DNA from: Natronomonas halophila
GTDB lineage: Archaea; Halobacteriota; Halobacteria; Halobacteriales; Haloarculaceae
NCBI RefSeq assembly: GCF_013391085.1
Contig: NZ_CP058334.1
Coordinates: 558,001-622,000, forward strand
Length of the DNA stretch: 64,000 bases
Reading direction: 5' to 3'
Of this stretch, positions 44,479-63,455 are shown one piece after another; positions within the stretch are counted from its first letter, which is position 1, and the number at the start of each line of letters is the position of its first letter. A program made the position numbers and the translations under genes. Below the pieces are notes generated by a model. That model saw nothing but the letters and a program-made list of their open reading frames with translations. It ran no database searches and was not told the origin of the DNA.

Positions 44479-44993
44479 TGTCGCTCGCCAAGCCGAAGGG
44501 GCCGCTCACCGAGATCGGCGAGTCCCCGAGCGATCACGAGTGCGAGCATCCCTCGCCCTGCCCGCACGACCCCGTCGTCCGGGTTCCGCATCCGAACCAA
44601 CTCGGCGCCACGGGCATCACGCTCTGCCCGTTCCACCTCGCCATCTGGATCGACGAACGCGCCGACGCCGTCGACCCCGACATCGAAGCCCTCGCCGCTG
44701 ACGACGCGCTCCTCGAGCTTGAAGACCTCCCACCCTGGACTCGCCACGCCGGCCAGGAATGGAGCCGGCTCGGCATCGACCACCACGGCCAGGGCCACCT
44801 CTACCGCGAAGTCAGCAGCGAGGACACCGCCCGCGTCATCCTCGTCGACGCCGACCTCGAAGTCCAGGACGTCAAGCGCGTCCCCGGCGAGCGCGACCTC
44901 GGCGACTGGATTCGCTACGTCCGCCGGAAACGCGGCTGGATGCGCCTCGACCCCGACGCGCGCGCCGCGCACGAAGGAGGTGACGGCCTGTGA
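44478..44993 (+). CDS. Element protein with Cys/His cluster, 171 aa
   Basis: The N-terminal third has Cys and His in a zinc-like arrangement (HECEHPSPCPHDP, TGITLCPFHLAIWIDE). The rest (EDLPPWTRHAGQEW, VILVDADLEVQDVKRVPGER, WIRYVRRKRGWMRLDPD) looks like a small mixed domain. A perfect Shine-Dalgarno GGAGGTGA (44464-44471) precedes the ATG. Function unknown; its place just before the HerA-like gene suggests a partner role. Confidence 0.6.
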   Translation: MSLAKPKGPLTEIGESPSDHECEHPSPCPHDPVVRVPHPNQLGATGITLCPFHLAIWIDERADAVDPDIEALAADDALLELEDLPPWTRHAGQEWSRLGIDHHGQGHLYREVSSEDTARVILVDADLEVQDVKRVPGERDLGDWIRYVRRKRGWMRLDPDARAAHEGGDGL

Positions 44994-46759: not shown

Positions 46760-46887
46760 GCCTCCGACTCGGGGACTGCGGCGAGTGCGGCAATCTCGTC
46801 TGGACCACCGACGATTACGAACTCTGGACCGGCGATTCGACTGTCGTTCACGCTAACTGCGGTGGGGAGGCGATGCTCGATGAGTGA
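46756..46887 (+). CDS. Zinc-finger microprotein, 43 aa
   Basis: TTG start overlapping the HerA-like stop (TTGA), reading SLRLGDCGECGNLVWTTDDY then ELWTGDSTVVHANCGG. Three cysteines and one His (CxxC...HxxC) form a likely zinc site. Its stop overlaps the next gene's start. Tiny, but bounded by perfect overlaps on both sides, so I think it is real. Confidence 0.55.
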   Translation: MSLRLGDCGECGNLVWTTDDYELWTGDSTVVHANCGGEAMLDE

Positions 46888-47350
46888 AGCCGAACTCGAG
46901 AACGAAGAGGTCGGTCTCCTCGTTGAGCAGGAAGCCTGCAATCGGTGGCACCTCGATCACGACGCCAACAACGGCGACGACCCGAGGCACTACGATGCCA
47001 CCGCCACCACCGATACACCCGTCACCGGCATCGTAGCCGGCGCCCTCGTCGAGGTAAAGGGCTGCGCCGAGTGGATCTCCGACGGCTCCGCGCGGCGCCG
47101 AGGCCGTTGGTGGTTTTCAAAATCCAATCACGACGCGCTGCTCGATGAGGGCGGCTACTACGCCCTCGGCGTCTACGACTCCGACGAAGTCGAAGTCCAC
47201 CGAGTCGTCCTGATCAACGCCCGTGCCGTCGACGGCATCCTCGCCGACCGATGGAGTACCTGCGGGAAGCAACACCATTCGAAGGAATCGGCTCAACTCC
47301 CCTGGCCTGAGGTTCTTCACAGCGGCCTCGACGTGGGGGTGAGCGACTGA
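46880..47350 (+). CDS. PD-(D/E)XK nuclease-like protein, 156 aa
   Basis: A small protein with a candidate nuclease core: an Asp-containing segment TATTDTPVTGIVAGALVEVK, where the E-V-K matches the (D/E)xK motif, followed by RGRWWFSKSNHDALLDEGGY and YYALGVYDSDEVEVHRVVLI, strand-helix-strand as in Holliday-junction resolvase/restriction folds. I infer a DNA nuclease; the family is not certain. Starts at ATG 46880 within the preceding microprotein gene. Confidence 0.6.
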   Translation: MSEAELENEEVGLLVEQEACNRWHLDHDANNGDDPRHYDATATTDTPVTGIVAGALVEVKGCAEWISDGSARRRGRWWFSKSNHDALLDEGGYYALGVYDSDEVEVHRVVLINARAVDGILADRWSTCGKQHHSKESAQLPWPEVLHSGLDVGVSD

Positions 47351-47520
47351 TGGCGGTTCGTGTCGAATGCCGGTACTGTACAACGGAATTCGTTCCACAT
47401 CCCGAGTTTGCAGACCACCAAGACACCTGCAGGCTCAACCCGATTAATCGACCCCACATAATCGGTACCGCCAACGCACCAGGTATCGACGTTTCCCTCT
47501 CTGAACGGGGTGAGGGGTGA
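47350..47520 (+). CDS. C2HC zinc-finger microprotein, 56 aa
   Basis: It starts MAVRVECRYCTTEFVPHPEF and continues ADHQDTC: a C-x2-C-x12-H-x3-C finger, much like the one at residues 75-95 of the large protein encoded at 47852. The ATG shares a base with the previous stop, and the stop shares a base with the next ATG. The Gly/Ser C-terminal tail looks unstructured. Probably a DNA- or protein-binding finger. Confidence 0.6.
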   Translation: MAVRVECRYCTTEFVPHPEFADHQDTCRLNPINRPHIIGTANAPGIDVSLSERGEG

Positions 47521-47855
47521 TGGCCTCCGCAAAGGCCCCGTCTCTCGACCATGAAACCGCCCATAACGTCCTCGCTTCTGCCGCCAACAGCCGGCAGGCA
47601 TCGAAAATCATCGACGTCCGCTCCTCGAGCGTGCTCGTCGCCGAGCGCGACAGTGGTATCGCCGTCATCATCGCCGGCTGTGACCGCGGCCTCCACGCCA
47701 TCTGGGCGCGCCAAGGCACCTACTGCGACGATCGCCACATCGGGCTGACACCGCTCGTCGGCGCCGTCGATGCCGCCGACCGAATCGAAGTCGACCAGAA
47801 CCCGTCGAGCGAGACCCGTCGCATCACCTACTGCGAGGAGCGTGATGCCGAATGA
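47520..47855 (+). CDS. Element protein of unknown function, 111 aa
   Basis: A small globular protein (TAHNVLASAANSRQASKIID, VLVAERDSGIAVIIAGCDRG, YCDDRHIGLTPLVGAVDAAD). Alternating strands and helices suggest a single alpha/beta domain; no motif is recognised. It starts at the ATG sharing a base with the preceding stop and overlaps the next gene as ATGA. Confidence 0.6.
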   Translation: MASAKAPSLDHETAHNVLASAANSRQASKIIDVRSSSVLVAERDSGIAVIIAGCDRGLHAIWARQGTYCDDRHIGLTPLVGAVDAADRIEVDQNPSSETRRITYCEERDAE

Positions 47856-49996
47856 CCGACCGGCATCACGCCGGCGACGACAAAGACATCCCCGGCCTCG
47901 AGGACGTCAACGACACCGACGACCCCGAGCAAGCAGACGAAATCCTCGAAGGCCTCCTCGGGCCCGACGCCGGCGACCGCGACGACGTCCCGACCAGCGC
48001 CGGCGACGATCAGGAAGAGAACGACGAGTCACGCGCTACTCGCGACGAGACACCGACCGGCAAGTGGGCCTGCCGGTTCTGCCGGGAAACACGCCGCTAC
48101 GCCGACCCCGACGAGCATCACGATGCCTGCCGCGAATCCGCTCTCCATTGGGAGGAGCTCGAAAGTGAAGCCGACTCCCAACCCGAAGACGAACCCGACC
48201 TCCCGACGCCAGAAGACCGAGCGGGCGCCGAAGAGATGGGTGAAACGCCGGAGGAACAGCACACCTATCTCGTCGATACCGCCTGGCACGAGTTCCGCGC
48301 CTACCTCAAGTTCGAACGCCACGGCCTCGACCCCTACTACGCGCTCCACTCGCTGATGCGTCGGACCGACTGGCACGACGGGGCGCCCACGCGCGAAATC
48401 GAGTACATGGACACGACGTTCACCGTCGAATTCACCTATCGCGAGACCGACGCCGAGGAGAAGCGCTACGAGCCCTGGTCGAACCCCGACTTCCAGATTC
48501 AGCGCCCGCGCGAGTTCCACCTCCAGGTCGACGGCCCCGGCGATCTCCGAAAGGCCAGCTTCCATATCCGCCCGCGCTGGCCCGGCATCCAACTCCAAGA
48601 CGGCACCGACGTCAACAACCCCCGGCAGATGACCGGCGTCGACGTCGACGCCGAAGGGTCGAACCTCGAGCCCGGCGCCTACCCCGAACTCCTCGACAAG
48701 GCCATGCAGGCCTTCGGCGTCAACGGCGGCAGCGACTACAGCCGGAAGCGGTACCTCTCACCGCCGAACGTCGCCCCCTGGAGCGTCGTCGTCGACGGAG
48801 AACTCTACGTCCGCATCAACGAGCGCTGGAGCGGCCGCATCATCGGCATCAAGGGCCCGCTTGAGCGGATGACCTACCTGCTCGCCGACGAGCGCAGCGG
48901 CTACCGTAAGCGCGTCGCCGACGACACCAAACGCGAAGGCTACTACCACACGACCACGCTCGGCTCCATGCGCTGCCGTCGTCTTCTCGACGGCCACCAG
49001 CTGGGCAAGGAGATCAAGCACTACCACGTCAAGAACCCCGACTCACTCGACGAGGATGACCCGCTCCGACAGCCGAAGGTCGGTGTCTCTCTCCAGCGCC
49101 GCATCTCGGATACGACCGTCTACTGGGATGCCGGTGCCCTCGAGGACGACGCCCGCGCTGCTGACGACGCCGTCGGCCTCAACGATATGGAGCGCGAACT
49201 CGACGAAGTCCTCCTGAACGTCCTCCGCTGGGCCGACATCCCCACTCGGCCGGATGCCCAGGTCTTCGTCGAGGACAACGTCTTCAAGCCCGACCTGAAC
49301 CGTCGCGAACGACGTCTCGTCCCCGATCCGCTCCCGGTGATCGAGAACAAGCAGGAGCACATGGTTACGCGCGCGCTCAACAAGATGACCGACTTGGAGC
49401 GCAGCGACACCGACGCCCAGGTCGTCACCGAACTGCTCGCCGACGGCGGCCCGCAAACACCGAAAGGCCTCGCCAAACGCACCGGGAAGACCTACGAAAC
49501 CATTCTCCGGAGCCTCCAGCGACTCGACGACGTCGTCGAACACAACTACGACGAAGTGAAGTTGAAGAGCCAGCACGTCGCCCAGCAACTCGCCGAGCGC
49601 GCCGGCAAGCTCCTGGAGGACTTCGGCTGGGTCACCGAGGAGATCGACCGCCTCGGCGACCAGCTCGCGAACGCCGTCGAAGGCCTCTCCCGACAGGACT
49701 CCGCCTTCGAGCAATGGGCCGAACGCTACCTCGAAGGTATCGACGACCTCGACGACGACCCTCGCATCATCCTCCGGTTCGGCTACCGGCCGAAGGACAT
49801 GGAGGAAGCCCGCGAAATCCTTCAGGACGGCCTGATGGCCCTTCGCGACGCCCTCGGCGAGAACGCCGCCGACTCGTCGCGGCTCGTTCGCTGGGGCCAG
49901 CCGAAGATGCAGCTGCGAGACGGCACACCGATGGCGTGGGGTACGGGGGTAACTCTCCTCGACATCCTGAACGGTTCCCGCAGCGCTGTCTCCTGA
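47852..49996 (+). CDS. Large element protein with zinc finger and winged helix, 714 aa
   Basis: An acidic N-terminal linker (residues 1-65) leads to a finger WACRFCRETRRYADPDEHHD then AC. A central region (about 130-460) has mixed alpha/beta character (YLKFERHGLDPYYALHSLMR, YLSPPNVAPWSVVVDGELYV). A winged helix follows (ADGGPQTPKGLAKRTGKTYE; about 520-570), then a helical C-terminus. I recognise no polymerase or helicase motif. As the last and largest gene of the operon it is my candidate for the element's replication initiator or main DNA-binding protein; this is inference. Confidence 0.65.
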   Translation: MTDRHHAGDDKDIPGLEDVNDTDDPEQADEILEGLLGPDAGDRDDVPTSAGDDQEENDESRATRDETPTGKWACRFCRETRRYADPDEHHDACRESALHWEELESEADSQPEDEPDLPTPEDRAGAEEMGETPEEQHTYLVDTAWHEFRAYLKFERHGLDPYYALHSLMRRTDWHDGAPTREIEYMDTTFTVEFTYRETDAEEKRYEPWSNPDFQIQRPREFHLQVDGPGDLRKASFHIRPRWPGIQLQDGTDVNNPRQMTGVDVDAEGSNLEPGAYPELLDKAMQAFGVNGGSDYSRKRYLSPPNVAPWSVVVDGELYVRINERWSGRIIGIKGPLERMTYLLADERSGYRKRVADDTKREGYYHTTTLGSMRCRRLLDGHQLGKEIKHYHVKNPDSLDEDDPLRQPKVGVSLQRRISDTTVYWDAGALEDDARAADDAVGLNDMERELDEVLLNVLRWADIPTRPDAQVFVEDNVFKPDLNRRERRLVPDPLPVIENKQEHMVTRALNKMTDLERSDTDAQVVTELLADGGPQTPKGLAKRTGKTYETILRSLQRLDDVVEHNYDEVKLKSQHVAQQLAERAGKLLEDFGWVTEEIDRLGDQLANAVEGLSRQDSAFEQWAERYLEGIDDLDDDPRIILRFGYRPKDMEEAREILQDGLMALRDALGENAADSSRLVRWGQPKMQLRDGTPMAWGTGVTLLDILNGSRSAVS

Positions 49997-50319
49997 CCAC
50001 CCGACTGGATAGAGGCATCACTCTCCCGGCGTTTTAGAGGCGGCAACAGTTTCCTGCTTTTATTCCTGAAGGTTATTTGCGAGTTACTTACCACCAGCTG
50101 ACCGCTCCCCTCGATCAGCGGCGGCGCTTCGAAAATCGGTGGGGGGGCCCCTAATTCCCGTTTAGGAGGTGTGCCTAAGGGCACATCCAAAAGGACACCT
50201 CCGGGCCTTCGGCCCTCCGGTACCGCACCACCAACCGCAAAAGAACAACCGCACGGTACTTTAATGAATCTTGTAGGCTCCAACAAGAGTTTTCCTTCCA
50301 CTCATCTATTTGCCTGAAT
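49997..50319. other. 323-base gap with nested hairpins, boundary to AT-rich cargo
   Basis: After the large protein comes an AT-richer stretch, then nested inverted repeats: GGAGGTGT (50165-50172) with ACACCTCC (50191-50198), enclosing TGTGCC/GGGCACA, then GGGCC-TTC-GGCCC, then GGTACCG and CGGTAC arms near 50220-50260. It could be a terminator for the operon, an accessory origin of the element, or a recombination boundary. No gene is visible. Base composition falls sharply to the right of about 50260. Confidence 0.45.
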
Positions 50320-51291
50320 ATGTCTGATGAAGACCTTGGTTCAGATCCCGGTCGCAATCTGGTGCGTAGATCGCTTCCCCTTATCATCGCCGTCTCGGCG
50401 ATTGGCGCTTTTCTAATAACAGCTGGGCATACTATTGCTATAGGTCTACCACAACTCAGTTATAACGGCGATTGGGGTGTGGTATCTTCTGGTTTGGTCG
50501 CGCTTGCTACACTCATTTTAGCATTTGTCACATATTCCACTCTTCAGCATACGGAGGAACAAATCCGTCATCTCCAAAGACAAGTCGAATTGCAAGAAAC
50601 CCGTCTGATCAATTATCAAAAAGAAATAGAACGACCCTTAGTCAAAGATGTTCTGCAGCAAGTGCTTCTGCCATCCTTGGAAGGTATCGAGTCTAACCTT
50701 GCCCGGTTGGATTCATCGTCCAACAAAGGTATAGGCTGGAAACAGTCTAACCCCCAAGGAGCGCAATCAACAGAGTTGGACTCTCTTGTTGAACTCGATG
50801 AAGTCGATCCAGTCCTCATTGACTGGCTTCGCGACAATTATCCAAGCTTGATTGATTCCATAGAAGCATATCAAGAGAAGAAGGTTGACTTTGAAGATAC
50901 AATGGATACCGTTGCTAGAGAGATCGAGGTGCCCATTAGGAAGGAGTTTCAAACCGGACGATTCGACCCCCTTTTACAGGAAGAAGAAGATGACATTCCG
51001 AGCGCGGTGGACGAGGTTGAGTGGTTGATCAGAAAAGCAATTAATCAAAAATCGTGGTCGAACCCAAAAGGTGGGATGATTCATCCTGAAAAAACTCTTG
51101 TTGGAGCCTCCGGGGGTAACATCCGCGGCCTATTTAGACGAGAGAATTACGGGAGGGAGGAAACTGCTGAAAGATATCAAGAGAGCATGAAGGAATTAAC
51201 CGCAGCGAGCGAGGAATTAAAAGAAGAAGTCTCGGAGGTCATTCAGGAGGTCCAAAATGAATACAATATTCCGCCAAACGAATTTGACTAA
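50320..51291 (+). CDS. Membrane-anchored coiled-coil protein, 323 aa (AT-rich cargo)
   Basis: Two N-terminal transmembrane helices (SLPLIIAVSAIGAFLITAGH and VVSSGLVALATLILAFVTYS) are followed directly by a coiled coil (TLQHTEEQIRHLQRQVELQE) and a polar helical cytoplasmic region ending in another charged helix. The codon use is much more AT-rich than the operon to the left. The family is not recognised. Proteins of this shape occur among accessory and abortive-infection-type genes, but nothing here proves such a role. Confidence 0.6.
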   Translation: MSDEDLGSDPGRNLVRRSLPLIIAVSAIGAFLITAGHTIAIGLPQLSYNGDWGVVSSGLVALATLILAFVTYSTLQHTEEQIRHLQRQVELQETRLINYQKEIERPLVKDVLQQVLLPSLEGIESNLARLDSSSNKGIGWKQSNPQGAQSTELDSLVELDEVDPVLIDWLRDNYPSLIDSIEAYQEKKVDFEDTMDTVAREIEVPIRKEFQTGRFDPLLQEEEDDIPSAVDEVEWLIRKAINQKSWSNPKGGMIHPEKTLVGASGGNIRGLFRRENYGREETAERYQESMKELTAASEELKEEVSEVIQEVQNEYNIPPNEFD

Positions 51292-51369
51292 CTTTACCGG
51301 GAGATAGGAAATGTTCGACTCTCTCAATAGAATCGCACACTTTTGCCGTTCCGGCACACGCCTCTTTAT

Positions 51370-51993
51370 ATGTCCACTCCCAGCCAATCCGGCCGCTCTA
51401 CGGATTCAAACATTTCGTGGCTCAAGGCCGACCAGGTCGAAGCCATGCGTGATGCCGCACACGAAGGCCGCCACGGCCCCCGCGACGACGCGATCGTCAC
51501 GCTCCTCTACGGCACCGGCCTTCGACGCGGCGAGATCGCACAGGTCGACCGGGACATGCTCGACCTCGAGGAAGAGCAACTCCGCATCCCCAGCGGAATC
51601 CAGAAAGACTACCCGAACGACAACACACCTTCGCCGGCGACGTTCGACCTCGATCCGAGTGGCGACCTCCGAACCGTGCGGACCCACCGTGTTTACCTCT
51701 CCGATCACGATGGTGATGATGCGCTCTTCCCAAGCCAGAAGTCGCCCCGGATGACGGGTAAGGCCATCAACGACGTCGTGAAGCGTCTCGCCGAGCGCGC
51801 CGGCGTTGAACCCTACACCTACGCTGGGCGTGGTTCCGCGAAGGACGTGACCGCCCATACATTACGACACTCTGTCGCTTGGCGGATGCTTCGGTACGAA
51901 GACAGGAATACGCTCTATGACGTTCGGAATCGGTTACGACACTCATCTATCCTAACTACTGAGCGGAAATACGACCACTTCGAGACAATCTAA
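51370..51993 (+). CDS. Tyrosine recombinase / integrase
   Basis: A 207-aa catalytic-domain integrase. Catalytic residues are visible: Arg in LYGTGLRRGEIAQVDRDM, the HxxR box in VTAHTLRHSVAWRML, a second His in RNRLRHSSILTTE, and the nucleophile Tyr in RKYDHFETI at the very C-terminus. The N-terminal core-binding SAM-like domain is absent or very short, so it may need a partner or be a resolvase-type enzyme. It is less AT-rich than its neighbours. Likely the integration enzyme of the element. Confidence 0.88.
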   Translation: MSTPSQSGRSTDSNISWLKADQVEAMRDAAHEGRHGPRDDAIVTLLYGTGLRRGEIAQVDRDMLDLEEEQLRIPSGIQKDYPNDNTPSPATFDLDPSGDLRTVRTHRVYLSDHDGDDALFPSQKSPRMTGKAINDVVKRLAERAGVEPYTYAGRGSAKDVTAHTLRHSVAWRMLRYEDRNTLYDVRNRLRHSSILTTERKYDHFETI

Positions 51994-52043
51994 GTTCTAT
52001 TTCTCGGACAAAACCTAAGGCATCTGCCGTGGGGTGTTGCCCT

Positions 52044-52568
52044 ATGCCTGCTGGTCAGACTGTCGACCACTATGACTGCTTAAAATTCGATGTAGAACCA
52101 GATGTTCATCCAGATCCAGTATATTTTACTGAGCAGTCCCCTGCTTTCCAGGTCCATATCACCAATGACAACTCCAAATATGAGTGGTGGGAGCATAGCG
52201 ACTTCGGCTGGAATATGGTAGTTGACGGCGATGTGGTCAGAAGTGAAAGAGAGATTTTTGGACCATTAGATAACGGAGAATCTACGAAGACTACCATAGA
52301 GCCCGGAGTCCTTGCTTATGAGGGCCACGGTGTCATCGAGATCTATACCGGTAAAGCAGGCCAAAGGAGAGACACTACTCGACGAAATCTCCATTCGAAC
52401 GACGAGCGAAACTGTGACCCAGCTTATTCCTTTAGCGTCTGGGATGAATCTCACTACGAAGCGACCGTGAGACGCCCAAAGCAACTACAAAAAGGGATTA
52501 TATTCACGTCTGCTGTGCTCATCATCTTCGCCTTTATACAACTCGTTTTGGCATCTTCGAGTCTCTAA
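52044..52568 (+). CDS. Protein with C-terminal transmembrane anchor, 174 aa
   Basis: A soluble beta-rich domain (FTEQSPAFQVHITNDNSKYE; GHGVIEIYTGKAGQRRDTTR) that may resemble an immunoglobulin-like fold, followed by one C-terminal helix (GIIFTSAVLIIFAFIQLVLA). No signal peptide, so it is probably tail-anchored facing the cytoplasm. GTG 52029 would add five residues. AT-rich codon use. Function unknown; it separates the integrase from the glycosylation genes. Confidence 0.55.
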   Translation: MPAGQTVDHYDCLKFDVEPDVHPDPVYFTEQSPAFQVHITNDNSKYEWWEHSDFGWNMVVDGDVVRSEREIFGPLDNGESTKTTIEPGVLAYEGHGVIEIYTGKAGQRRDTTRRNLHSNDERNCDPAYSFSVWDESHYEATVRRPKQLQKGIIFTSAVLIIFAFIQLVLASSSL

Positions 52569-52694: not shown

Positions 52695-53690
52695 ATGGGT
52701 AAAAAGGCAGGAGCGATTATCGAAAATGACTCTTCTGCACGACAATCAACTGCTCTATCGATCGTGCTGCCTGTGTATAATGAATCAGGAAACCTTGAGC
52801 CATTACTGGAGGAACTTAGACAAGCCGCCGAATCAGATAATCTGAGCGATTACCAGCCATACGAAATCATTTTTGTTGATGACCGGAGTACAGATGGGTC
52901 GCGGGATCTCTTGCAAGATATCGCAGATAAACATTCGAATGTTAAGGTGATAGTTCTTAGTCGCAATTTCGGCCAAAGCGCGGCACTAGCAGCTGGAATA
53001 GACTCTGCAAGCGGAAATGTTATTGTGACGATGGATTCTGATATGCAGAATGATCCTGCGGATATCCCTCGGCTGCTCGAAGAACTCGAGAAGGGGTATG
53101 ACTGCGTTAGCGGGTGGCGAAAGGATCGCAAGGATTCAATTTCAAAAACGCTCCCGTCGAAGATTCAAACGTACTTAGCTTGGCTAACTGGCCCTAAGAT
53201 ACACGACTTTGGCTGTACGCTCAAAGCGTATCGGTCTGAGGCAATCAAAGACATTGATTTGCATGGTGAGGGCCATCGGTATATTCCTGCAAGGCTACAT
53301 CATCGAGGCTATCGGGTTTCTGAAATCCCCACGAATCACCGTTCGCGTGGAAGTGGGGAAACAAAATACGGCAATAAGAGACTTGTCAAAGGGTCCCTAG
53401 ACTTGTTGTTCCACGCATTTTGGACAAGATTCTCTTCGCGACCGATTCACCTACTGGGGTCTCTTTCACTCCTTTTCATACTTGCAGGGGTGACGCTGGG
53501 TGTCCATTCTGTATATATAAAATATGTTCACAATATTCCGTTGGAGCCGAAAACGCCGAGATTGATATTGATATCCCTATTAATCTTGTTTGGTGTGCAA
53601 CTGTTCATATTTGGCGTTCTCGCAGAAATGATCACAAAACTCTATTATAAAAGCGAAGAACCATACCGTATTAGCGAGGTCATTGAATGA
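52695..53690 (+). CDS. GtrB-like polyprenyl-phosphate glycosyltransferase (GT2)
   Basis: A 331-aa protein with a GT2 domain (LSIVLPVYNESGNLEPLLEE, then EIIFVDDRSTDGSRDLL, and the DxD region VIVTMDSDMQNDPADIPRLL). HRSRGSGETKYGNKRLVKGS is typical of DPM1/GtrB enzymes. Two C-terminal helices (LGSLSLLFILAGVTLGVHSV and ILISLLILFGVQLFIFGVLA) anchor it in the membrane. It would load a sugar onto a polyprenyl phosphate at the inner face. TAAGTAAG at 52666 is a likely TATA. First gene of a coupled three-gene set. Confidence 0.87.
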   Translation: MGKKAGAIIENDSSARQSTALSIVLPVYNESGNLEPLLEELRQAAESDNLSDYQPYEIIFVDDRSTDGSRDLLQDIADKHSNVKVIVLSRNFGQSAALAAGIDSASGNVIVTMDSDMQNDPADIPRLLEELEKGYDCVSGWRKDRKDSISKTLPSKIQTYLAWLTGPKIHDFGCTLKAYRSEAIKDIDLHGEGHRYIPARLHHRGYRVSEIPTNHRSRGSGETKYGNKRLVKGSLDLLFHAFWTRFSSRPIHLLGSLSLLFILAGVTLGVHSVYIKYVHNIPLEPKTPRLILISLLILFGVQLFIFGVLAEMITKLYYKSEEPYRISEVIE

Positions 53691-54226
53691 GTCGTTATAC
53701 CAGAGATGAATTGGTTGAGATCGACGGCTCCCCGGTCGTTCTCAATCTAGGATGTGGTACCGATCGTCGTGGAGTGGGGATAGACGTTAACTATGATACT
53801 GCCGACATATCCGCAGATCTAAATGAAGGGATTCCTGTTGAGGATGACGCAGTCGACCATATAATTATTGAACATGTTCTGGAACATGTTGAGAATCCTT
53901 CTGAAATCCTGCGTGAAATGTATCGAGCTCTACACTCTAATGGGACAGCAATTATCGAAGTCCCGAATGCAGGCTGGCTTCCTGTTCGGCTCTATCTAAC
54001 GCAAGATATCCACCAATTTTGGGCTCATAAGGATCCGAATAAGGAGGGACATTGGTTAGCACGACGACTGGGTAACACCGATCCGGACAGAACAGCACAT
54101 CTAACACTCTGGAGCAAAGCGTTATTGAGAGACCATCTTGACCGGGTTGGTTTCCAATATGAGTTCGTAAATTCCAAACATTGGTCTCGGAATATCCGAG
54201 CCAAAGTTAGCATTCCCGATGAATGA
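53687..54226 (+). CDS. SAM-dependent methyltransferase (class I)
   Basis: A 179-aa methyltransferase with motif I in VVLNLGCGTDRRGVGIDVNY, an acidic motif II, and VDHIIIEHVLEHVENPSEIL, typical of the Methyltransf_11 group. GTAIIEVPNAGWLPVRLYLT completes the fold. It overlaps the GtrB-like and GtrA-like genes by four bases on either side, so it probably methylates a sugar or its carrier in the same pathway. Confidence 0.82.
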   Translation: MSRYTRDELVEIDGSPVVLNLGCGTDRRGVGIDVNYDTADISADLNEGIPVEDDAVDHIIIEHVLEHVENPSEILREMYRALHSNGTAIIEVPNAGWLPVRLYLTQDIHQFWAHKDPNKEGHWLARRLGNTDPDRTAHLTLWSKALLRDHLDRVGFQYEFVNSKHWSRNIRAKVSIPDE

Positions 54227-54612
54227 TAGTACAGCTCCTTCGATATGGTATCTCCAGCCTCGGAGGTCTAATTTTTAATTTATTATTGCTATCCGCTCTT
54301 GTTGAGATAGCTGATGTAGGCGAAATCCCCGCAGCAGTAGTTTCTGCTGGAATCGCCCTTTTACTCACATTTGCGCTGAACCAGGGCTGGGTATTCAGTC
54401 AATATCAAGCTAAGTCCAAACAAGTACTTGCGAAAAGAGCATCTTTTTATTATATCATTATGATTGGGGGGAAATCTGCAAATATAGTAATCTATTCTGT
54501 TTTATTAAAACTGAATATCTGGTATCCACTTGCGTGGGTAATTGGGAGTGGAATCGTATTCGGAGTGACGTTCCTACTGAACCGGAATATTTGGACCAGA
54601 ACAGCTGACTAA
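54223..54612 (+). CDS. GtrA-family membrane protein
   Basis: A 129-aa four-helix protein of the GtrA family: LLRYGISSLGGLIFNLLLLS at the start, LLLTFALNQGWVFSQYQAKS in the middle (the family's conserved N-W-F region), and VTFLLNRNIWTRTAD at the end. GtrA proteins help flip or present polyprenyl-phosphate sugars. It is the last gene of the plus-strand set and converges, four bases apart, with a GT-C transferase gene. Confidence 0.87.
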   Translation: MIVQLLRYGISSLGGLIFNLLLLSALVEIADVGEIPAAVVSAGIALLLTFALNQGWVFSQYQAKSKQVLAKRASFYYIIMIGGKSANIVIYSVLLKLNIWYPLAWVIGSGIVFGVTFLLNRNIWTRTAD

Positions 54613-54616
54613 ATTT

Positions 54617-56407
54617 TCATCCACAACTTTGAGTGTGGTTCTTGTGTGTGTATATTGTCATACTTCTACCCCCATGTTGTGTAATGTTTTCTGAAGCACA
54701 ATAATTCGTATTTACTGACTGTTCAATCGCCGGCGATACGCTGAAAATTGTCTCTGTCCGCCTCTCTACTATGACGTACTGAGTGTTTCCGGATTTTAAA
54801 TCGTTATTTGTATCCCTAATTATATCTTTGCTTCTACTGGATTCAGGGTCCCATGTCACAGTCCAATATTTTCTCGAAAAGTCGTTGGTAACTCTATGAC
54901 CGGCTTCTAATATATATAATGGCTGCGCGCTGAAACCTTGAGCATCGTCCCCGAACTCCTTATGGAGATCGTTGCCGATGGCGACTGTATCCGTAACGGT
55001 GATTTGATTATCTCCACCTGCCGGTCCCACAACTAAAGGATTAGCCATAGTGAGGGAGATTATGATGGCGCTTACGAGTAAGCAACTCCATGCGATTTTC
55101 TGTACTGTTTCAAATTTAATTTCCCGCAAAATTACCAGGGCTGTAATCCCGGTGATTATAGACAAATAGGGGAATGCATCCTGGAAGTACGTGACAAAAA
55201 TACCTCGGTCCCGTATAGCATAACTTGCGACAATAGCTAGTACCAAGCCAGCTGGGAGAAGCAACTTCGGGTTCCATAAAGGTGTATCTGAGTCTCCATC
55301 AATTTGGGGCGTCAGTAGAACCACAGGAAGCCCAAACCCAACAATTACCGACACTACGGTCGATTCCATGAGCCAACTTGATTCGGTAAACGGCGCGAAG
55401 TGGACAGAAAACGTTGATAAAACAGCACCTAATCCAAGTACTACAAACATAGCTAAAGTTCTCGTATTCCCAAGCCTCCTTCTAAGATATGTGACAGGAT
55501 ATATTAATAATAACAGCAGAACAGGGAGTAAGACAATAGCTGCCCGCATGTATGTGATACGATAGCCAATATTTCTTGCTACTACGACATAGACGAACGA
55601 AAATAAATTTTCAAGAATTCCTGTCTGGCCCTCAGCACCATTACCCGGTGAGACCGGTTCTGAAATTAGTCCAAATAGATGTGTGTTCAAGAGTTGGATA
55701 AAGTGTTCCGTAGAACCTCCGGACCATATCATGTATCCAACCATTACGGTTAGGCCTGTGGAAAGGACAAATAAAGCACCCCGTGAAACCGAGTCAATGA
55801 ACGACTTCCCTTTGATGCCATATCGGTAGTACAACAAAAATACTAGAATGACACCAAAGTGAACGACGACCACCCGACGAACAAAAAACGCGGTTCCAAC
55901 CGCCCCACCGAGTAAAATCGGATCACGTAGTGGAAGGTAATCGTCGTCAAGATGACCAAGCAGCGGTAATAGTCCAGTTAGAACTACTAGTTGTGCTACC
56001 TGTTCCGTCTTCAGCCAAAGCCCATAAACTAGTTCGAAAGGGGCCAAAACGAATACAGCCATGGCCATAATCCCGGCCTCGCGGGAATGGAGTTGGGTTG
56101 TGACAAGGTATATCGCCACTCCGAGAGTGAGGCTTACTAAAGCCATCTGTACTCGCGCAATAACGATTGGACTCAAATCGAGGAGTATAGCGGGCGATAG
56201 GAACGCATGGAAAAGAGGTGATCGGCTAAAATAATCTATAAGCGGAACTTGTCCTTCTAAGAGGAGTTTAGTGTCATATAAATATAAACCTGCATCATAG
56301 TTGACAACAACCAGATTAAAAAAGACGATTCGAAAAATGACACCAAGAGCTAGTATTGTGATAACGGGATGAGAATAGACCCGATCTCGAATAGATTCCA
56401 TATTCAT
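54617..56407 (-). CDS. GT-C type integral membrane glycosyltransferase
   Basis: A 596-aa protein with about eleven helices, then a 130-residue soluble C-terminal domain with two cysteines (NYCASENITQHGG region). The first outer loop has the acidic motif NYDAGLYLYDTKLLLEGQ, in the place of the catalytic Asp of GT39/PMT-like enzymes; SRSPLFHAFLSPAILLDLS follows. It would transfer a sugar from the polyprenyl carrier on the outside of the cell. Starts at 56407 or 56401 fit a minus-strand TATA AGATATATC near 56433; 56440 is less likely. Confidence 0.78.
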   Translation of the reverse strand: MNMESIRDRVYSHPVITILALGVIFRIVFFNLVVVNYDAGLYLYDTKLLLEGQVPLIDYFSRSPLFHAFLSPAILLDLSPIVIARVQMALVSLTLGVAIYLVTTQLHSREAGIMAMAVFVLAPFELVYGLWLKTEQVAQLVVLTGLLPLLGHLDDDYLPLRDPILLGGAVGTAFFVRRVVVVHFGVILVFLLYYRYGIKGKSFIDSVSRGALFVLSTGLTVMVGYMIWSGGSTEHFIQLLNTHLFGLISEPVSPGNGAEGQTGILENLFSFVYVVVARNIGYRITYMRAAIVLLPVLLLLLIYPVTYLRRRLGNTRTLAMFVVLGLGAVLSTFSVHFAPFTESSWLMESTVVSVIVGFGLPVVLLTPQIDGDSDTPLWNPKLLLPAGLVLAIVASYAIRDRGIFVTYFQDAFPYLSIITGITALVILREIKFETVQKIAWSCLLVSAIIISLTMANPLVVGPAGGDNQITVTDTVAIGNDLHKEFGDDAQGFSAQPLYILEAGHRVTNDFSRKYWTVTWDPESSRSKDIIRDTNNDLKSGNTQYVIVERRTETIFSVSPAIEQSVNTNYCASENITQHGGRSMTIYTHKNHTQSCG

Positions 56408-56700
56408 TCTTGTCAAAAAGGTAGGCCGATATATCTTCAAATTATCGAACCTGTGATATCGTCTCTGACGCAGAATTTAAGAGCATTTTAATCAACTCCT
56501 CAATACTGACGAGTTGGTTGAGGGCATTCCAGGTTTGATTGATCCCAATGAGGTCCCGATCTATATTGTGTCGGACTGAGCGGGTAAGTTAATGAATTGA
56601 TTTTGTTATCGATTCGCGCTAACGTTTCAAGCGTCTACAGCCGATGGCATCGTGAGCGTGTCATCGACTGATCGATGTCGTTCGGTTCTCGCCGACGCCT

Positions 56701-57167: not shown

Positions 57168-59525
57168 TCAGGGAACGATGTCAGACCACGGCGCATTGAG
57201 CGCTTTCTCGCCGACGGGCGTCAGTACGTACCCGCCGAGCTCTTCATCCTTTACGATACAGGCACCGAGGTCCTCGTTCGTACTGGCGTAATTCGCGATG
57301 GTCGTCTCTTTCACAGTACAATGGTCGGCAATCTGGCCATAGGTCCCGACACGATTATCGCGGACTGCACGCAGGACGTCCAGCATGTTCGAGCGCTTGT
57401 CATCGCTGACGTATGCCCATGGCTCGATGACAGTCGGGATATCGTGGTCATCGAGGTTGTTCTTGACGCGTTCTTCCTGGGCTTTCTCGGCGTCCCGAAT
57501 CGTCGTCGTCCGCTCGGCCCGCGGTTGCTCGGTCGGGTACAGCGAGAGGTCGCTCGGAACGGGATACTCTCGCCGCCGTTCAAGCGCCTCTGCCACGACC
57601 TCGGCGTCGATGTCGGCCGGACTGATGTCATCGGGGAAATCATCGTCGATGAGATACCAGTCCGAGTAGTAATCCCGAATCGCGGGTTTCTCGTCGCCGT
57701 CGTGGACTTCGATATCGTTGACTTCGACCCACCACTCCACGTCGTCGAATGTGTAGTGCCACTTGTCGCGTTCCTCTTCGCGAACGCGGGCGCCCCACGC
57801 GATGCCGTATCGATCCAACCAGACTCGGTCTTTATCGGAGAGCCCGCACCGCGCGCCGGCGAACTCAACGGGCCAGCGTTTCCATTTCGGCGTTGCGATG
57901 AGGCCCTGGCCCTTTTTGAAACTCTTAATCTGCTCTTCGAGGCCATCGAGGTCCAGGCCCTCTTTCAGCGTGCTAATCCCTTCGTCCTCGTTCGACAGGA
58001 CGATCTTGTTTCGCATGTTCACGCGGATGGAGCGCTCGACGTCGTTGAGTTTCTGGGTCGACCCAACGAGCATGATACCGCGAGAGCCGCCCTGTGAGGC
58101 GAGTTCGAAAATCGTTTGGGTCGTCGCCTTCCGCTCGGCGCTATACTTGTGATTTCGCGGCTGTGAGGGCGCGACGTTCTTCAACTCCCGAATCTCCAGC
58201 GCAATCCGAGGCACGTTCTTGTTCTCGTCGATCGCCGTCCAGATAAGCTGCATCCACAGGTCCATGATGACGAACTGGAGGGCGCCGTGGCCGTCATCGA
58301 GGAAGTTACAGTTCAGCGCGGCGACGCGCTCCTGGTCTTTCAGCACGGCCTCCATATCGAGGTTCGTCTCGGCATCGGCGTCCTCGATGAGGCCGTCGGC
58401 GGCGTACTGGGCGAGTGTGTTGGCCGCCTGCTGGAGGGTTTCGTCTTCCTCCATCTGATAGGAGATGTCGCGCATCGCCTCTTCGTCACCCAGTTCGTTG
58501 ACGGTGACGGTGGCTTCCTTCTCGCCGGCGAGGTCCTGCAGTTCGTCGACGAGTTGGTCGACCGTTCCAGTGCCGCGGCGCGTCGTTTTCAGCGCCTGCT
58601 TGATCCGGCGTTCGGTTGAGCCGCTGGCCGAGGACTTGCCAGCCAGTCGGAGGATGATCTCGGGCGTCAGTGTATCGACGCCGACGGTGAACAACTCGAA
58701 GTTCCCGGGGAGTCGGTCCGGGAGGCCCGGCATCGCGGGCACGTAGACGCGTGTCTCGTATGCTTTCGGTTCCTGCCCGAGGCGTTTGAGACTCTGCCGA
58801 ATCGGGTCTTCGTCGTTCGGGATGGCGATCATCGGGAGTTCGTTTCGGCCGTCGTCGAGGATGGAGACCCACTTGTAGCCGTGTTGGTCCTTCAGGTTCC
58901 CACAGATGCGGGCGTTCGTCGAGTCCTTGCCCTGGCGTGGACTCGCCGTGGTCAGGATGTGGTCACACGACATGTGCGGGACGGCGGCGCTCATGTACTC
59001 GACGGAGGCTGTCGAATCGCCAGCCATCCGCTTCCGGCCGATGGGGAGAAGGTCCTCTTCTTTGACCAGCGAGCGCATCCCCTTCTTATCGAGATGTTCG
59101 AGCGTGATCGGGGCGTAGTTCGTCCGGTCGCTGGCGCCGGCGATGTAGCCCTGCGCTTTCGCAATTTCATGCAGGACGGCGTGTTCGTCGACAGCGTCGG
59201 GGCGGCGACCACGCGTCCGAAGCCGGTGCATCCGGAGAAAGGCGCTGCGGGCCCACGGTGCGACGTCGCTGCCGCGAAGGACGTCGTCGCGGTCGGGGTC
59301 CAGCCACAGGTACCAGTGGGCTTGCGCGAGCAGTTCCTCGGCATCAGCGTCGCTATCGCCGACCAGCGCGTCTTCGGCGTCGCTGATAAGCGTCCGAACC
59401 TCGGCTTCGACCTCACGATTCTCCTGATAGAGTTGCTCACGAATCCGGTCGCGAAGCCGGTTTTCGGCCGCGGTGGCCGTGTCGGTCCGGTCGCGTTCCT
59501 GAATCGCGTCGAATTGGCTATTCAT
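57168..59525 (-). CDS. VirD4/HerA-type ATPase with C-terminal winged helix, 785 aa
   Basis: A soluble ATPase. The P-loop region is HILTTASPRQGKDSTNARIC, where the residue after GK is Asp and the Ser is one place later, an unusual Walker A. WVSILDDGRNELPMIAI follows, like the DxxxE strand of VirD4 coupling proteins. RIALEIRELKNVAPSQ is in the Walker B position, and IMLVGSTQKLNDVERSIRVN carries the family STQ motif. The last 70 residues form a winged helix (GTYGQIADHCTVKETTIANY). It probably moves DNA through the membrane complex encoded upstream. Confidence 0.75.
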   Translation of the reverse strand: MNSQFDAIQERDRTDTATAAENRLRDRIREQLYQENREVEAEVRTLISDAEDALVGDSDADAEELLAQAHWYLWLDPDRDDVLRGSDVAPWARSAFLRMHRLRTRGRRPDAVDEHAVLHEIAKAQGYIAGASDRTNYAPITLEHLDKKGMRSLVKEEDLLPIGRKRMAGDSTASVEYMSAAVPHMSCDHILTTASPRQGKDSTNARICGNLKDQHGYKWVSILDDGRNELPMIAIPNDEDPIRQSLKRLGQEPKAYETRVYVPAMPGLPDRLPGNFELFTVGVDTLTPEIILRLAGKSSASGSTERRIKQALKTTRRGTGTVDQLVDELQDLAGEKEATVTVNELGDEEAMRDISYQMEEDETLQQAANTLAQYAADGLIEDADAETNLDMEAVLKDQERVAALNCNFLDDGHGALQFVIMDLWMQLIWTAIDENKNVPRIALEIRELKNVAPSQPRNHKYSAERKATTQTIFELASQGGSRGIMLVGSTQKLNDVERSIRVNMRNKIVLSNEDEGISTLKEGLDLDGLEEQIKSFKKGQGLIATPKWKRWPVEFAGARCGLSDKDRVWLDRYGIAWGARVREEERDKWHYTFDDVEWWVEVNDIEVHDGDEKPAIRDYYSDWYLIDDDFPDDISPADIDAEVVAEALERRREYPVPSDLSLYPTEQPRAERTTTIRDAEKAQEERVKNNLDDHDIPTVIEPWAYVSDDKRSNMLDVLRAVRDNRVGTYGQIADHCTVKETTIANYASTNEDLGACIVKDEELGGYVLTPVGEKALNAPWSDIVP

Positions 59526-61195
59526 GATGGAATCGTGTACCGTTGGGTCGTTTCTTCAGGCGTTGCGTCCGGCAAGTCGTATCGCGTCTCCAGCGACTGC
59601 ATCGGGAATCGCTGGGAGAAGTTCGCTCGCAGCTTTGCGACGTCCGGAGGCAGCGCCTCGACGCGGGCGCGGACGCCCACGATGTCCCGGCCGCCGTCGG
59701 GTGCCTCCAGCGTCATCTCACGCTCGACGAGCGCCGCGGGCACGAGTTCTTCGTAGCACTCGGCGACGAGATCGGGGCCGTAGCCCATCCCGACAAAGCG
59801 GAGACCTTGCCAGATGTAGCGGCGGTCGTGCTCGGTGACGCGGCCGGCGAGGACGTCTCGTGGGACGATGCCTTCCTCGGAATCCAGCACCTCGCTCACG
59901 AGTTCGTCGTAGATACCGGGCTTCTCGAAGTTCTCCCGCCAGCCCGCGAAGTTGAGGATATAGCGGTCGACACACCACGCGTACCGCTCCTCGATGGCTG
60001 GCGACGGGTGATAGCCGTTCGAGCGTTCGAGGGCCCGCGTCGCGAGCGTCTCCACGAGATCCTCGCGGTCCTTCGAGGCGTATCGCCGCCCGGCGAGAAA
60101 GCCGATGTGGAGGGTGACTTCCGGCGTTTCGACGGTCTTGACGAGGACGCTGATTTCCTCCCACGTCTCGCCGGTGCGGTCGCCGCGAAGGCGTCGGAGG
60201 CGACGTTTTCGCCGCCACTGGTCGGTCTTGTACACGCCGAGGCCGACCAACAGCGCTGCGGCCAGCATCGACGGATACAGCCACACCTGTACCCAGAACT
60301 GGACGACGATGAGCTCAAGGACGAACACAATCGCCGCCGGCACCAGGAGGCGCCAGATGAGTGCCGATGTCTGCAGCGAAGTTGCCAGATCCATGCGCCA
60401 GAGCTTGAAGCGCTCCGAGGCCGACGCCGCCGGGCCGTCGTCGCCGGCATCGTCGCTCTCGTCGGGGCGGTCCGGGACCTGAATAACGGTCTCGGCCTCT
60501 GGCTGGTCGTCAATCGGGCGGACCGCAGGCGTCAGGGCTTCGTCGAAGGGATCGGTGACGCCTTCCTCCAGTGAGAGCGTGTCGGCTTCGCCCTCGAAGG
60601 CGCTGCGGATGTGGGCTTTCGCTTTCTCAACCGTGTCGTCACCGAAGATGATGGCGCGATTCGTGCCCTGCGTCGTCCGAATCTCGTCGGCTGCCTGCGT
60701 AATCGTCTCCGGCGAGTAGCCGGTCTCTTGGGCGGCGCGGCGAATCCGCGCGGACCGAATTCCCCAGATGGTACCGCGGCCGAACACGACGGCCGCGATG
60801 ACGTAGCCCCAGCCGTTCGTCATCCACTCGAAGAGCGCCGAGATGACGGGCGCACTGGAGGCCGACACTTCGGTGCCGGAAGTCGCGGCGTAGAAGAACC
60901 CGGCGCCAGCGATTGACGCCAACAGGATCGCGCCAAGAGTAAGCGCTTTCGTTGCGGGCGAGGCGACGAGCAGACCTCGAATGCTTCGCCAGACGCGAAT
61001 CGGGATACGGAACGGGAACGTGAGGACTCGCCACAGGAGCCTCAGCCCTCGCGACCCTGCCTCGAAAACAGGTCCGAGCAGCGTTTTGATGCGGCGGGCA
61101 GCACGAACCACGAGCCGAACGGGTAGGGTGAGAACCCGCCAGATGAAGCCGATAACCGTCGCGACGGCCGCCCGAAGGCGGTCAAGCGCCCCCAT
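59522..61195 (-). CDS. Multi-helix membrane protein of the export-like operon, 557 aa
   Basis: The N-terminus has amphipathic basic repeats (WRVLTLPVRLVVRAARRIKT and WRVLTFPFRIPIRVWRSIRG), then a helix pair near residues 85-145 and another near 280-330, and a cytoplasmic C-terminal domain of about 220 residues (GYHPSPAIEERYAWCVDRYI). It overlaps both neighbours by one to four bases. No family recognised; topology suits an inner-membrane platform protein. Confidence 0.65.
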   Translation of the reverse strand: MGALDRLRAAVATVIGFIWRVLTLPVRLVVRAARRIKTLLGPVFEAGSRGLRLLWRVLTFPFRIPIRVWRSIRGLLVASPATKALTLGAILLASIAGAGFFYAATSGTEVSASSAPVISALFEWMTNGWGYVIAAVVFGRGTIWGIRSARIRRAAQETGYSPETITQAADEIRTTQGTNRAIIFGDDTVEKAKAHIRSAFEGEADTLSLEEGVTDPFDEALTPAVRPIDDQPEAETVIQVPDRPDESDDAGDDGPAASASERFKLWRMDLATSLQTSALIWRLLVPAAIVFVLELIVVQFWVQVWLYPSMLAAALLVGLGVYKTDQWRRKRRLRRLRGDRTGETWEEISVLVKTVETPEVTLHIGFLAGRRYASKDREDLVETLATRALERSNGYHPSPAIEERYAWCVDRYILNFAGWRENFEKPGIYDELVSEVLDSEEGIVPRDVLAGRVTEHDRRYIWQGLRFVGMGYGPDLVAECYEELVPAALVEREMTLEAPDGGRDIVGVRARVEALPPDVAKLRANFSQRFPMQSLETRYDLPDATPEETTQRYTIPS

Positions 61196-62442
61196 CAGTC
61201 ATCACTCCCGGTGCCGTGGTTCGACGGCCCGAACGCCATCTTGTCCTCGTTATCGAGTTCCTCGATGAGCTGGGCGACGTCGTCGCGAGCGTCTCGATAC
61301 AGGTGGCCGAGGTTGTACTCGGTCTCCATGTACTCGAGTGTCGCCTTCACCTCGCCGAGGGCCTGCTTCGCGGTCGGGATGCGGTTCCCGCGAAGGACGG
61401 GCTCCAGCCACGAGTTCTCGATGTTGCCGGGTTCGAGATCGGCCACGCCGTCGTGGACCTGCTCCAGTCCGTCGTCGGTCTTCCGGTGGGCGCCCAGCGC
61501 TGCCAGCCGGGCGAGTTGGCCCGCGGACCGCGTCTTCAAGCCGTCCTGCCAGTAGATCGCGTTCGACCCGACGGCTGGGATGTCTTCGAGCGGCACTTCG
61601 TCGGCGGTCTGGCGCTGCTCGCGATACGCGAGTTCCAGTTCGCGACGCTCGCGTTCGGCGCGTCCGACGTCGTTCTGCAGGGCCTCCAGGAGGCCGCCGT
61701 AGCGACGCTGAATCCACTTCGCCAGCAGCGCGATACCGGCGAGCAGCAGGACCCAGAACAACCAGTTCGTCGCGGCGGCGATAGCCAGCCCCATCAGTTG
61801 GGCGGCTTTCTCGGTGAGGAAGCCTTCAACGAGGTCGGCGCGGTCATTGATGTAGCCAAGGTAGACCTGGAGTTCGTCGGGGGAGGTCCCGTAGCCGTGG
61901 GCTTCCGAGACCTCCTTCAGTTCCTCAATGACGGGCGCGTATTCCTGCAGTTCACTGGCGCCGACGGAGACGCCGGTCTTCCGCGCATACAGCGTGATCT
62001 CTTTCGTGCTGCCGTCTTCGAAGAACAACTCCAGCGTGTACAGCGATTTCTCGCCGAGCGGCGCGGCATCGTCATCGTAGTCGACGCGGACCTGCCGGCC
62101 GCCGGCCAACACCTCGGCGTTCGCGGGTTGCTGTTGGACACGGGCGGCCTCGACGGATTGAGAGAGGGAGAACACCGCGAACGGCCCGGTGGTTTCGAAC
62201 ACCGAATCCGACTGGTTGACGGCAACGCCAAGGAAGTCCTCGTCGAACTGCACGGGCGTGACGCGCACCTGTGAGGCCGCGGTCGGGCCCTCGGGCTCCG
62301 AGTCACCGGCTGCCGGTGTCGGCGTCGAGGCTGTCTCTGTCGGCGTCGCGGTCGTCGTGTTCGTACCGTCCTGGGCGACGGCGCCCATCGGGACGGCAAC
62401 CAGCGAGAGGATCAGTAGCGCGGCGAGGACGAGACGCTTCAT
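61195..62442 (-). CDS. Secreted/membrane-anchored protein of the export-like operon, 415 aa
   Basis: A Sec signal peptide (LVLAALLILSLVAVPMGAVA) is followed by a Thr-rich stretch, an outer beta-rich domain (about residues 55-150), and one transmembrane helix in the middle (AAATNWLFWVLLLAGIALLA, about 230). A cytoplasmic part with a coiled coil (LQNDVGRAERERRELELAYR) and helical tail comes last. It thus spans the membrane once with domains on both sides, as in a secretion-complex or virion protein. No family recognised. Confidence 0.68.
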   Translation of the reverse strand: MKRLVLAALLILSLVAVPMGAVAQDGTNTTTATPTETASTPTPAAGDSEPEGPTAASQVRVTPVQFDEDFLGVAVNQSDSVFETTGPFAVFSLSQSVEAARVQQQPANAEVLAGGRQVRVDYDDDAAPLGEKSLYTLELFFEDGSTKEITLYARKTGVSVGASELQEYAPVIEELKEVSEAHGYGTSPDELQVYLGYINDRADLVEGFLTEKAAQLMGLAIAAATNWLFWVLLLAGIALLAKWIQRRYGGLLEALQNDVGRAERERRELELAYREQRQTADEVPLEDIPAVGSNAIYWQDGLKTRSAGQLARLAALGAHRKTDDGLEQVHDGVADLEPGNIENSWLEPVLRGNRIPTAKQALGEVKATLEYMETEYNLGHLYRDARDDVAQLIEELDNEDKMAFGPSNHGTGSDD

Positions 62443-63455
62443 GTATCGGCCTCCATGCCGGCGCCGTTGGCCTCACGCTGGTCTTTCGGGAGTCGCTCGG
62501 CACGGCGGTCCTGACGGACTTCGACCGACCGCTGCGGCGTCGGTAGCCGCTCCAACGTCTCCATGATTTCCTCGCGAGCGGCTTCGCGATTGAATCGCTC
62601 GTTGGACTGCATCCGCCGCTGAAGGTCGGACAGCAGCGCCTGTGCCTCGCCGAGTTTCGCGTCCTTGGTGTCGAGTCGCATCTTGTATTTCTCGATTTGC
62701 TCTTTTTGCTGGAGGTAGCTCTCGTAGGGCATCTCGATGGGGGATCGATACTGGTAGTCGGCAGCGTTCGAGACGCCCTCGGTGGTTTCCTGGGCTTGCG
62801 TGCGAATCTGGTAGTGGTCCTCGTCGATCTGGACGGCGTGACCCGGGATTTCGTGGGCGACGCGGTCGCTCAACACCGTGCGTTTCGACCGGAGTTCGCG
62901 GTCGTGGGCGACAAGCTTCCGCCGGCCGAAGAGCCCGAGAATCCGGGTGGGGAAGTGCTCGTAGACGATCTTGTTGCCGTCGGTGTTCGTCGTCGTCTCG
63001 GCTTTGCCGTACCAGACGGTTTCGGTGCTTTCCTCGTCGCCGCCTTCGTCTTCGTAGACGATGTCGAGGCGGCCGCGGCCGCGGTCCTTCTTTGCCCGGT
63101 AGGCGACGCCGCCGAAGATACCGACGATGGCGATAACGCCGGCCTGAATCGCGTTCGCGTACGGGACTTCCGCCGGCGCGCCGGCTTTGAACGTGAAGTA
63201 GACGTAGACGCCAGTTGAGATGATGATGCCGCCGATAGCAAGTACCACCACCTTCGCGGGTAGCGTCAGGGTCTTGTGTTTCTTCAGCCACGAGACGCTG
63301 TAGTCGCCGCTGCGGCGGGCTTCCTGTTTCACGCGGTCGGTCCCGCTGTCGGGGTTTTCGCGGTCGTCACCGAAGACGTTCCAGCGGTCCAGCGCCCAGA
63401 TGACGAGCAGAACGATGACGACGGCGATAACGCCGATGGCGACGTAGTTCACCAT
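62439..63455 (-). CDS. Membrane protein with C-terminal coiled coil, 338 aa
   Basis: Three N-terminal helices (VAIGVIAVVIVLLVIWALDR; AKVVVLAIGGIIISTGVYVY; AIQAGVIAIVGIFGGVAYRA) precede a soluble domain (GRGRLDIVYEDEGG...RKLVAHDRELRSKRTV). A coiled coil follows (QQKEQIEKYKMRLDTKDAKL), with a basic C-terminal tail. It overlaps the genes on both sides (ATGA and a one-base overlap). No family recognised; it looks like a structural subunit of the same membrane complex. Confidence 0.65.
   Translation of the reverse strand: MVNYVAIGVIAVVIVLLVIWALDRWNVFGDDRENPDSGTDRVKQEARRSGDYSVSWLKKHKTLTLPAKVVVLAIGGIIISTGVYVYFTFKAGAPAEVPYANAIQAGVIAIVGIFGGVAYRAKKDRGRGRLDIVYEDEGGDEESTETVWYGKAETTTNTDGNKIVYEHFPTRILGLFGRRKLVAHDRELRSKRTVLSDRVAHEIPGHAVQIDEDHYQIRTQAQETTEGVSNAADYQYRSPIEMPYESYLQQKEQIEKYKMRLDTKDAKLGEAQALLSDLQRRMQSNERFNREAAREEIMETLERLPTPQRSVEVRQDRRAERLPKDQREANGAGMEADT

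Follow-up and report, generated by a model that had tools for sequence, protein, structure and literature searches.

The 64,000-nt stretch of DNA analyzed here (the window) corresponds to positions 558001-622000 of the 3.21 Mb single-contig chromosome of Natronomonas halophila. On balance, four adjoining AT-rich genes in it are best explained as a glycan-modification cassette that was acquired horizontally and is cargo of a mobile stretch in which cluster 2, the second structural cluster, of a pR1SE-like plasmid-vesicle element is also found. This explanation is based directly on the protein families, the linkage of GtrB, GtrA and GT-C homologues in two genera, the foreign base composition, the absence from congeners and the neighborhood of vesicle genes; each enzymatic step, the sugar, the acceptor and any effect on sensitivity to viruses or vesicles are what we infer. 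Judged from their sequences, the GtrB, GtrA and GT-C proteins are best read as a dolichyl-phosphate (Dol-P)-sugar synthase, a flippase candidate and an extracytoplasmic transferase, and the cassette probably adds one extra sugar to the cell surface. Its genes are:

52695-53690, + strand, GtrB-like GT2 enzyme with a DSDMQ motif in the GT2 domain and two C-terminal transmembrane (TM) helices
53687-54226, + strand, class I S-adenosylmethionine-dependent methyltransferase of 179 aa (Methyltransf_23, Methyltransf_11)
54223-54612, + strand, GtrA/DPMS transmembrane-domain protein of 129 aa (PF04138)
54617-56440, - strand, putative GT-C transferase of 607 aa from a TTG start (an alternative internal ATG at 56407 gives 596 aa)

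A preliminary description of this locus had named these four genes, with 4-base overlaps and a convergent GT-C gene, and a check of open reading frames (ORFs) and junctions bore it out. The GtrB/methyltransferase and methyltransferase/GtrA junctions are each a 4-base ATGA overlap, and the GtrA and GT-C genes converge, with stop codons (54610-54612 and 54617-54619) 4 bases apart. The cassette is also AT-richer than its surroundings, as had been claimed: its genes have a GC content of 0.41-0.46 and a GC content at third codon positions of 0.37-0.44, against 0.59-0.66 and 0.73-0.85 respectively in the flanking element genes, and the surrounding DNA has a GC content of about 0.62-0.66.

Protein families of the cassette

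The GT2 protein matches PF00535 at 3.5e-35 (Pfam). Its best NCBIfam match is the ArnC-type PRK10714 (1.1e-50, under the cut-off), and its nearest solved structures by sequence are ArnC, the sll0501 glycosyltransferase (which we take to be Synechocystis GtrB) and the P. furiosus Dol-P-mannose synthase. Its TM helices lie at residues 251-269 and 290-308, and its identity to the GtrB proteins of phages SfV and epsilon34 is 28%. The GtrA protein passes the Pfam cut-off for PF04138 (1.5e-13) and is a candidate flippase for a lipid-linked sugar; the identities first proposed for both proteins are supported. The flippase-related AglR of Haloferax belongs to another family than GtrA. The methyltransferase matches Methyltransf_23 at 2.7e-11 and Methyltransf_11 at 2.2e-10, with LNLGCG as motif I, and may possibly act in glycan methylation. 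Hydropathy analysis gave two TM helices for the GT2 protein, none for the methyltransferase, three for GtrA and about 11 for the GT-C protein.

The fourth protein is likely a GT-C transferase, an assignment made through a homologue. In the 146 family genomes searched, its one strong relative is a Halosimplex aquaticum protein, 30% identical over the whole length, and the same protein was the sole relative in a scan of GTDB contigs. This relative matches PMT_2 at 4.9e-13. Profile-profile comparison aligned residues 18-159 of the fourth protein with PMT_2-positive haloarchaeal proteins (probability 81, E 1.2e-5). The GT-C identity given in the preliminary description is therefore supported by way of the homologue, but not by a Pfam match of the protein's own.

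A related gene set in Halosimplex aquaticum

In H. aquaticum XZYJT29 (NZ_CP118158), a member of the same family, a GtrA gene comes after a GT-C gene, and both face a convergent GtrB gene. Identity to the window proteins is 30% for GT-C, 43% for GtrA and 48% for GtrB. Unlike the cassette in the window, the Halosimplex set is GC-rich and has no methyltransferase; it adjoins a tRNA-Thr gene, and no vesicle genes were seen in its neighborhood. The grouping of GtrB, GtrA and GT-C in two genera despite changed order and orientation is the best evidence for a joint function, and the functional linkage that had been supposed for the cassette is supported by it. Related GtrB genes elsewhere are paired with PMT/PMT_2 transferases and LPG_synthase_TM proteins, which also speaks for the proposed cassette. 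An S-layer-type glycoprotein gene and the archaeosortase A gene (artA) are about 5 kb away from the Halosimplex set, and this proximity hints at the S-layer as acceptor. At this locus (L102, 2082-11797) the S-layer-type gene, archaeosortase A, tRNA-Thr and the GT-C/GtrA/GtrB set are all found within about 10 kb.

Occurrence in congeners and on mobile elements

No close relative of the GT-C protein or of the methyltransferase was detected in any of the 19 congeners searched, one of which gave a GT-C match of marginal strength (E 8e-4). Of the 19, one has a relative of GtrB at E<=1e-30; this relative is 50% identical and belongs to an exopolysaccharide (EPS)-type locus downstream of the same tRNA-Val that is found in the window. 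We therefore rejected the possibility, named in the preliminary description as one that would refute its own proposal, that the cassette is a conserved chromosomal glycosylation locus. In one congener (G129:C74:6001-26000), a complete glycan locus lies behind tRNA-Val, with GT4, PMT_2, a GtrB relative, a Wzx-type flippase and an epimerase.

It had also been proposed to look for the same four genes beside integrases in other haloarchaeal genomes. They did not recur in the plasmid, phage, IMG/VR or GTDB material searched. By annotation, the GtrB/GtrA/GT-C set was in none of the 13 (of 14) ATPase-bearing plasmid records inspected. IMG/VR scans for GT-C, GtrA and the vesicle ATPase gave no matches, and the GtrB scan gave seven contigs with at most 39% identity, on which neither GtrA nor GT-C had a relative. 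Since the set recurs neither on plasmids nor on IMG/VR contigs, the computational finding that would most strongly favor a conversion function is lacking.

The mobile DNA that carries the cassette

To the right of the cassette, six consecutive genes (57168-64318) are syntenic with pR1SE 20352-27767, which is gene cluster 2:

57168-59525, - strand, pR1SE ORF25-type ATPase (VirB4/HerA-like), last gene of cluster 2, 38% to pR1SE 25296-27743 (E 6e-156)
59522-61195, 61195-62442, 62439-63455, 63455-64057 and 64061-64318, - strand, five further cluster-2 genes, matched by tblastn to pR1SE 20352-25166 (E 1e-42, 1e-53, 8e-30, 5e-18 and 2e-5)

The last two of these genes reach or pass the window end, and coordinates were continued into the next chromosome stretch; pR1SE ORF numbers are those deduced from position. 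pR1SE is a plasmid of Halorubrum lacusprofundi that spreads in plasmid-encoded membrane vesicles, and the genes in question are its conserved cluster 2 (PMC10818511). The cluster-2 gene order recurs in further plasmid and genome loci, and homologues of the vesicle ATPase were found in 14 haloarchaeal plasmids and four other family genomes but in no phage record. The carrier thus has its relatives among pR1SE-type vesicle plasmids and not among tailed temperate viruses, unlike the phage carriers to which the locus had been likened.

The element in the window resembles pR1SE and the related apHPV elements in the conserved order of the cluster-2 genes and in the variable cargo next to the core (PMC10818511). 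It differs from them in being chromosomal, in that cluster 2 was the only cluster found, and in carrying a DUF7845 (pL6-type) gene and the glycan cassette. A relative of pR1SE ORF17 was not seen beside the cluster-2 genes of the window. With respect to cluster 1 (ORF6-9), an ORF8 profile found nothing in the whole genome, in a search without a positive control; the element ORFs compared with pR1SE gave no cluster-1 match, and MCM was not found next to cluster 2. MCM or another ATPase comes after the ATPase gene in most of the related plasmids that were inspected; in the window, a 109-aa ORF comes next, and after it the AT-rich DNA. In a published survey, 3 of 38 incomplete elements had cluster 2 alone, and the window element would accordingly be of a rare type.

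The left part of the mobile region contains plasmid- or virus-type genes:

43640-50050, + strand, left part of the mobile region, with an HerA/SMC-like ATPase, a DUF7845 protein and small plasmid or virus genes
44990-46759, + strand, HerA/SMC-like ATPase
47852-49996, + strand, DUF7845 protein with relatives on pL6-type plasmids

Evidence for this part comes from matches to PF25227 (8.2e-94), to phrog_3288 (1e-126) and to pL6-size Haloquadratum plasmids (29-30%). The combination of cluster 2 with DUF7845 is unusual; it is common to the window and to the largest contig (3.7 Mb) of another family genome, where cluster-2 genes have a DUF7845 gene nearby (G066:C1:2910001-2950000). The mobile region has at its right end an archaellin/type IV pilin-like gene (65350-65940, continued coordinates), relatives of which lie near vesicle genes in two other genomes. 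A defense-system reading of the neighboring ORFs was dropped after a PADLOC search gave no strong match.

The mobile region begins near tRNA-Val(GAC) (43537-43612). This tRNA gene is an integration site in congeners, two of which have DUF7845 relatives directly downstream, and second partial copies of its 3' end occur 2.2 kb away in one congener (G134) and about 37 kb away in another (G121). In the chromosome studied here, no convincing direct repeat of the tRNA-Val 3' end was found within about 85 kb downstream; the one hit of searches for attachment-site (att) repeats around it was a further tRNA-Val gene that differs from it, located 51 kb away on the opposite strand. The first ~25 bases past tRNA-Val resemble the chromosome of a congener. 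When congeners were compared for an empty site, the genes to the right of the element were not adjacent to tRNA-Val.

Proposed mechanism and comparison with known systems

In the mechanism that we propose, the GtrB-like enzyme would use a nucleotide sugar to charge dolichyl phosphate on the inner side of the membrane. The resulting Dol-P-sugar would be moved across by GtrA, or with its help, and outside the GT-C protein would pass the sugar to an acceptor that has been exported before, most likely the glycan of the S-layer glycoprotein. The small methyltransferase would probably methylate the sugar or the glycan.

These components may be compared with phage gtrA-gtrB-gtrC systems (Salmonella P22-like, Shigella SfV), which likewise have a two-TM lipid-phosphate sugar synthase, a small GtrA protein and a poorly conserved polytopic transferase on mobile DNA. 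The third protein is the least conserved in gtrABC (PMC3688519), which fits the orphan GT-C in the window. The gtrA-gtrB-gtr(type) arrangement to which the locus had been likened is not found here: the order is gtrB-methyltransferase-gtrA on the + strand, with a convergent GT-C gene on the - strand and the methyltransferase as an extra gene. Furthermore, the lipid is presumed to be archaeal dolichol instead of bactoprenol, and the carrier is of the plasmid-vesicle type. To our knowledge, no archaeal mobile element has been established as altering a host surface glycan. A module of minimal size for Dol-P-sugar transfer, lying next to genes of the vesicle-plasmid type, would offer a small, deletable test case, and would join two questions, namely which cargo is spread by plasmid vesicles and how pressure from viruses makes archaeal surface glycans diversify.

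Among haloarchaea, AglD, AglR and AglS of Haloferax volcanii add the final mannose of the S-layer N-glycan from Dol-P-Man (PMC3871713). As proposed for the cassette, a Dol-P-sugar is made inside, crosses the membrane and is used outside by a membrane transferase (PMC3871713), but these genes are host-encoded and chromosomal. AepG of Haloarcula hispanica, a GT2 enzyme with two C-terminal TM helices that has been likened to Synechocystis GtrB, was shown to make Dol-P-GlcA (PMC9943897). It is another haloarchaeal GtrB-like two-TM GT2 protein; unlike the window enzyme, it serves EPS synthesis and is encoded in a large chromosomal EPS cluster. Two glycosyltransferases encoded by pR1SE-DL18 have been detected in vesicles (PMC10384203).

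Alternative explanations

Several results weigh against a glycan-modification cassette acquired as cargo. The GtrB of the window shares 60% identity with GtrBs from a different genus, which lack an adjoining GtrA, but 48% with the Halosimplex GtrB, and therefore the set was not inherited as a single block. The methyltransferase is unique to the locus: at E<=1e-20, the other 145 family genomes contain nothing related to it. A GtrA protein is encoded in 136 of the 146 family genomes, so that GtrA alone is not distinctive and was rejected as a marker of phage cargo; at the best 30 GtrA loci, none had a relative of the window GtrB inside about 1.5 kb. The fourth protein (596-607 aa) has itself no NCBIfam match, nor any Pfam match up to E=10, and an AlphaFold2 model from an alignment with its single homologue reached a predicted local distance difference test (pLDDT) score of 40 and was discarded. 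Finally, the GT-C gene lies on the strand opposite to the other three and therefore is not in one operon with them.

One possibility is that the cassette is an ordinary glycosylation or EPS fragment that came to lie in mobile DNA by accident, brings the element no benefit and may be decaying. Relatives of GtrB elsewhere do lie in the usual EPS/glycan loci with GT4, Wzx-type and PMT genes, no other pR1SE-like plasmid inspected carries the set, and the element has neither a detectable cluster 1 nor an att repeat. We nevertheless consider a chance fragment rather unlikely: none of the four frames is interrupted, the overlaps are tight, and the genes are of transfer type only, with none for sugar synthesis, as expected for a minimal one-sugar transfer module. 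It may also be supposed that the cassette serves the vesicle, glycosylating vesicle proteins (the cluster-2 products) and affecting particle stability, not the host S-layer. The neighboring genes are homologous to vesicle-protein genes; glycans are present on vesicle proteins, and when the host lacks the oligosaccharyltransferase AglB the vesicle titer drops up to fourfold with infection efficiency unchanged (PMC10384203). An effect on vesicle stability therefore deserves serious consideration beside host exclusion. However, the Halosimplex set is not beside vesicle genes, such genes are missing from most pR1SE-like plasmids, and the window element looks incomplete; a vesicle-directed role seems quite improbable.

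The preferred explanation, an acquired glycan-modification cassette, is compatible with a further reading that goes beyond it, in which the cassette would be a true analogue of serotype conversion and the altered glycan would exclude rival viruses or vesicles. The component-by-component analogy to gtrABC (PMC3688519) and the location on mobile DNA speak for such a role, which by this analogy is conceivable but somewhat doubtful. Infection by pR1SE vesicles is independent of AglB-made host N-glycans (PMC10384203), which argues against the exclusion of like elements via N-glycans. More speculatively, and in our view unlikely, the plasmid-vesicle elements of haloarchaea may carry exchangeable surface-glycan conversion cassettes, a vesicle-borne element re-labeling the host S-layer, and perhaps its own vesicles, as serotype-converting phages do the O-antigen.

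The integrase and the AT-rich island

The AT-rich island extends beyond the four genes, over about 50.05-56.65 kb, and also holds two AT-rich ORFs (50320-51291 and 52029-52568) between which a GC-rich integrase gene (GC 0.60) is lodged:

51343-51993, + strand, small XerA-like tyrosine recombinase of 206-216 aa (PF00589, 9.4e-22)
52029-52568, + strand, AT-rich ORF of 179 aa between the integrase and GtrB, with one C-terminal TM helix (residues 157-175)

Family searches with the 179-aa ORF gave no match. The small integrase has its closest relatives among similarly small enzymes of haloarchaeal plasmids (up to 71%). Plasmids related to the vesicle element carry longer integrases of about 350-425 aa, and the small enzyme should not simply be taken for the integrase of the element. 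Of the earlier statement that the cassette sits in an element next to its integrase, the part that holds is that AT-rich acquired DNA lies within mobile DNA; the 179-aa ORF intervenes, and the integrase is not assignable to the element.

Beside the recombinase gene there is a perfect 19-bp inverted repeat (AGGCTCCAACAAGAGTTTT; 50275-50293 and 51091-51109), the arms of which are 816 bp apart, one ahead of and one within a 323-aa SLATT-like membrane ORF (50320-51291). None would be expected by chance, and no further copy occurs anywhere in the genome. Flipping between the repeats would exchange the C-terminus and the strand of this ORF, and a phase switch is possible.

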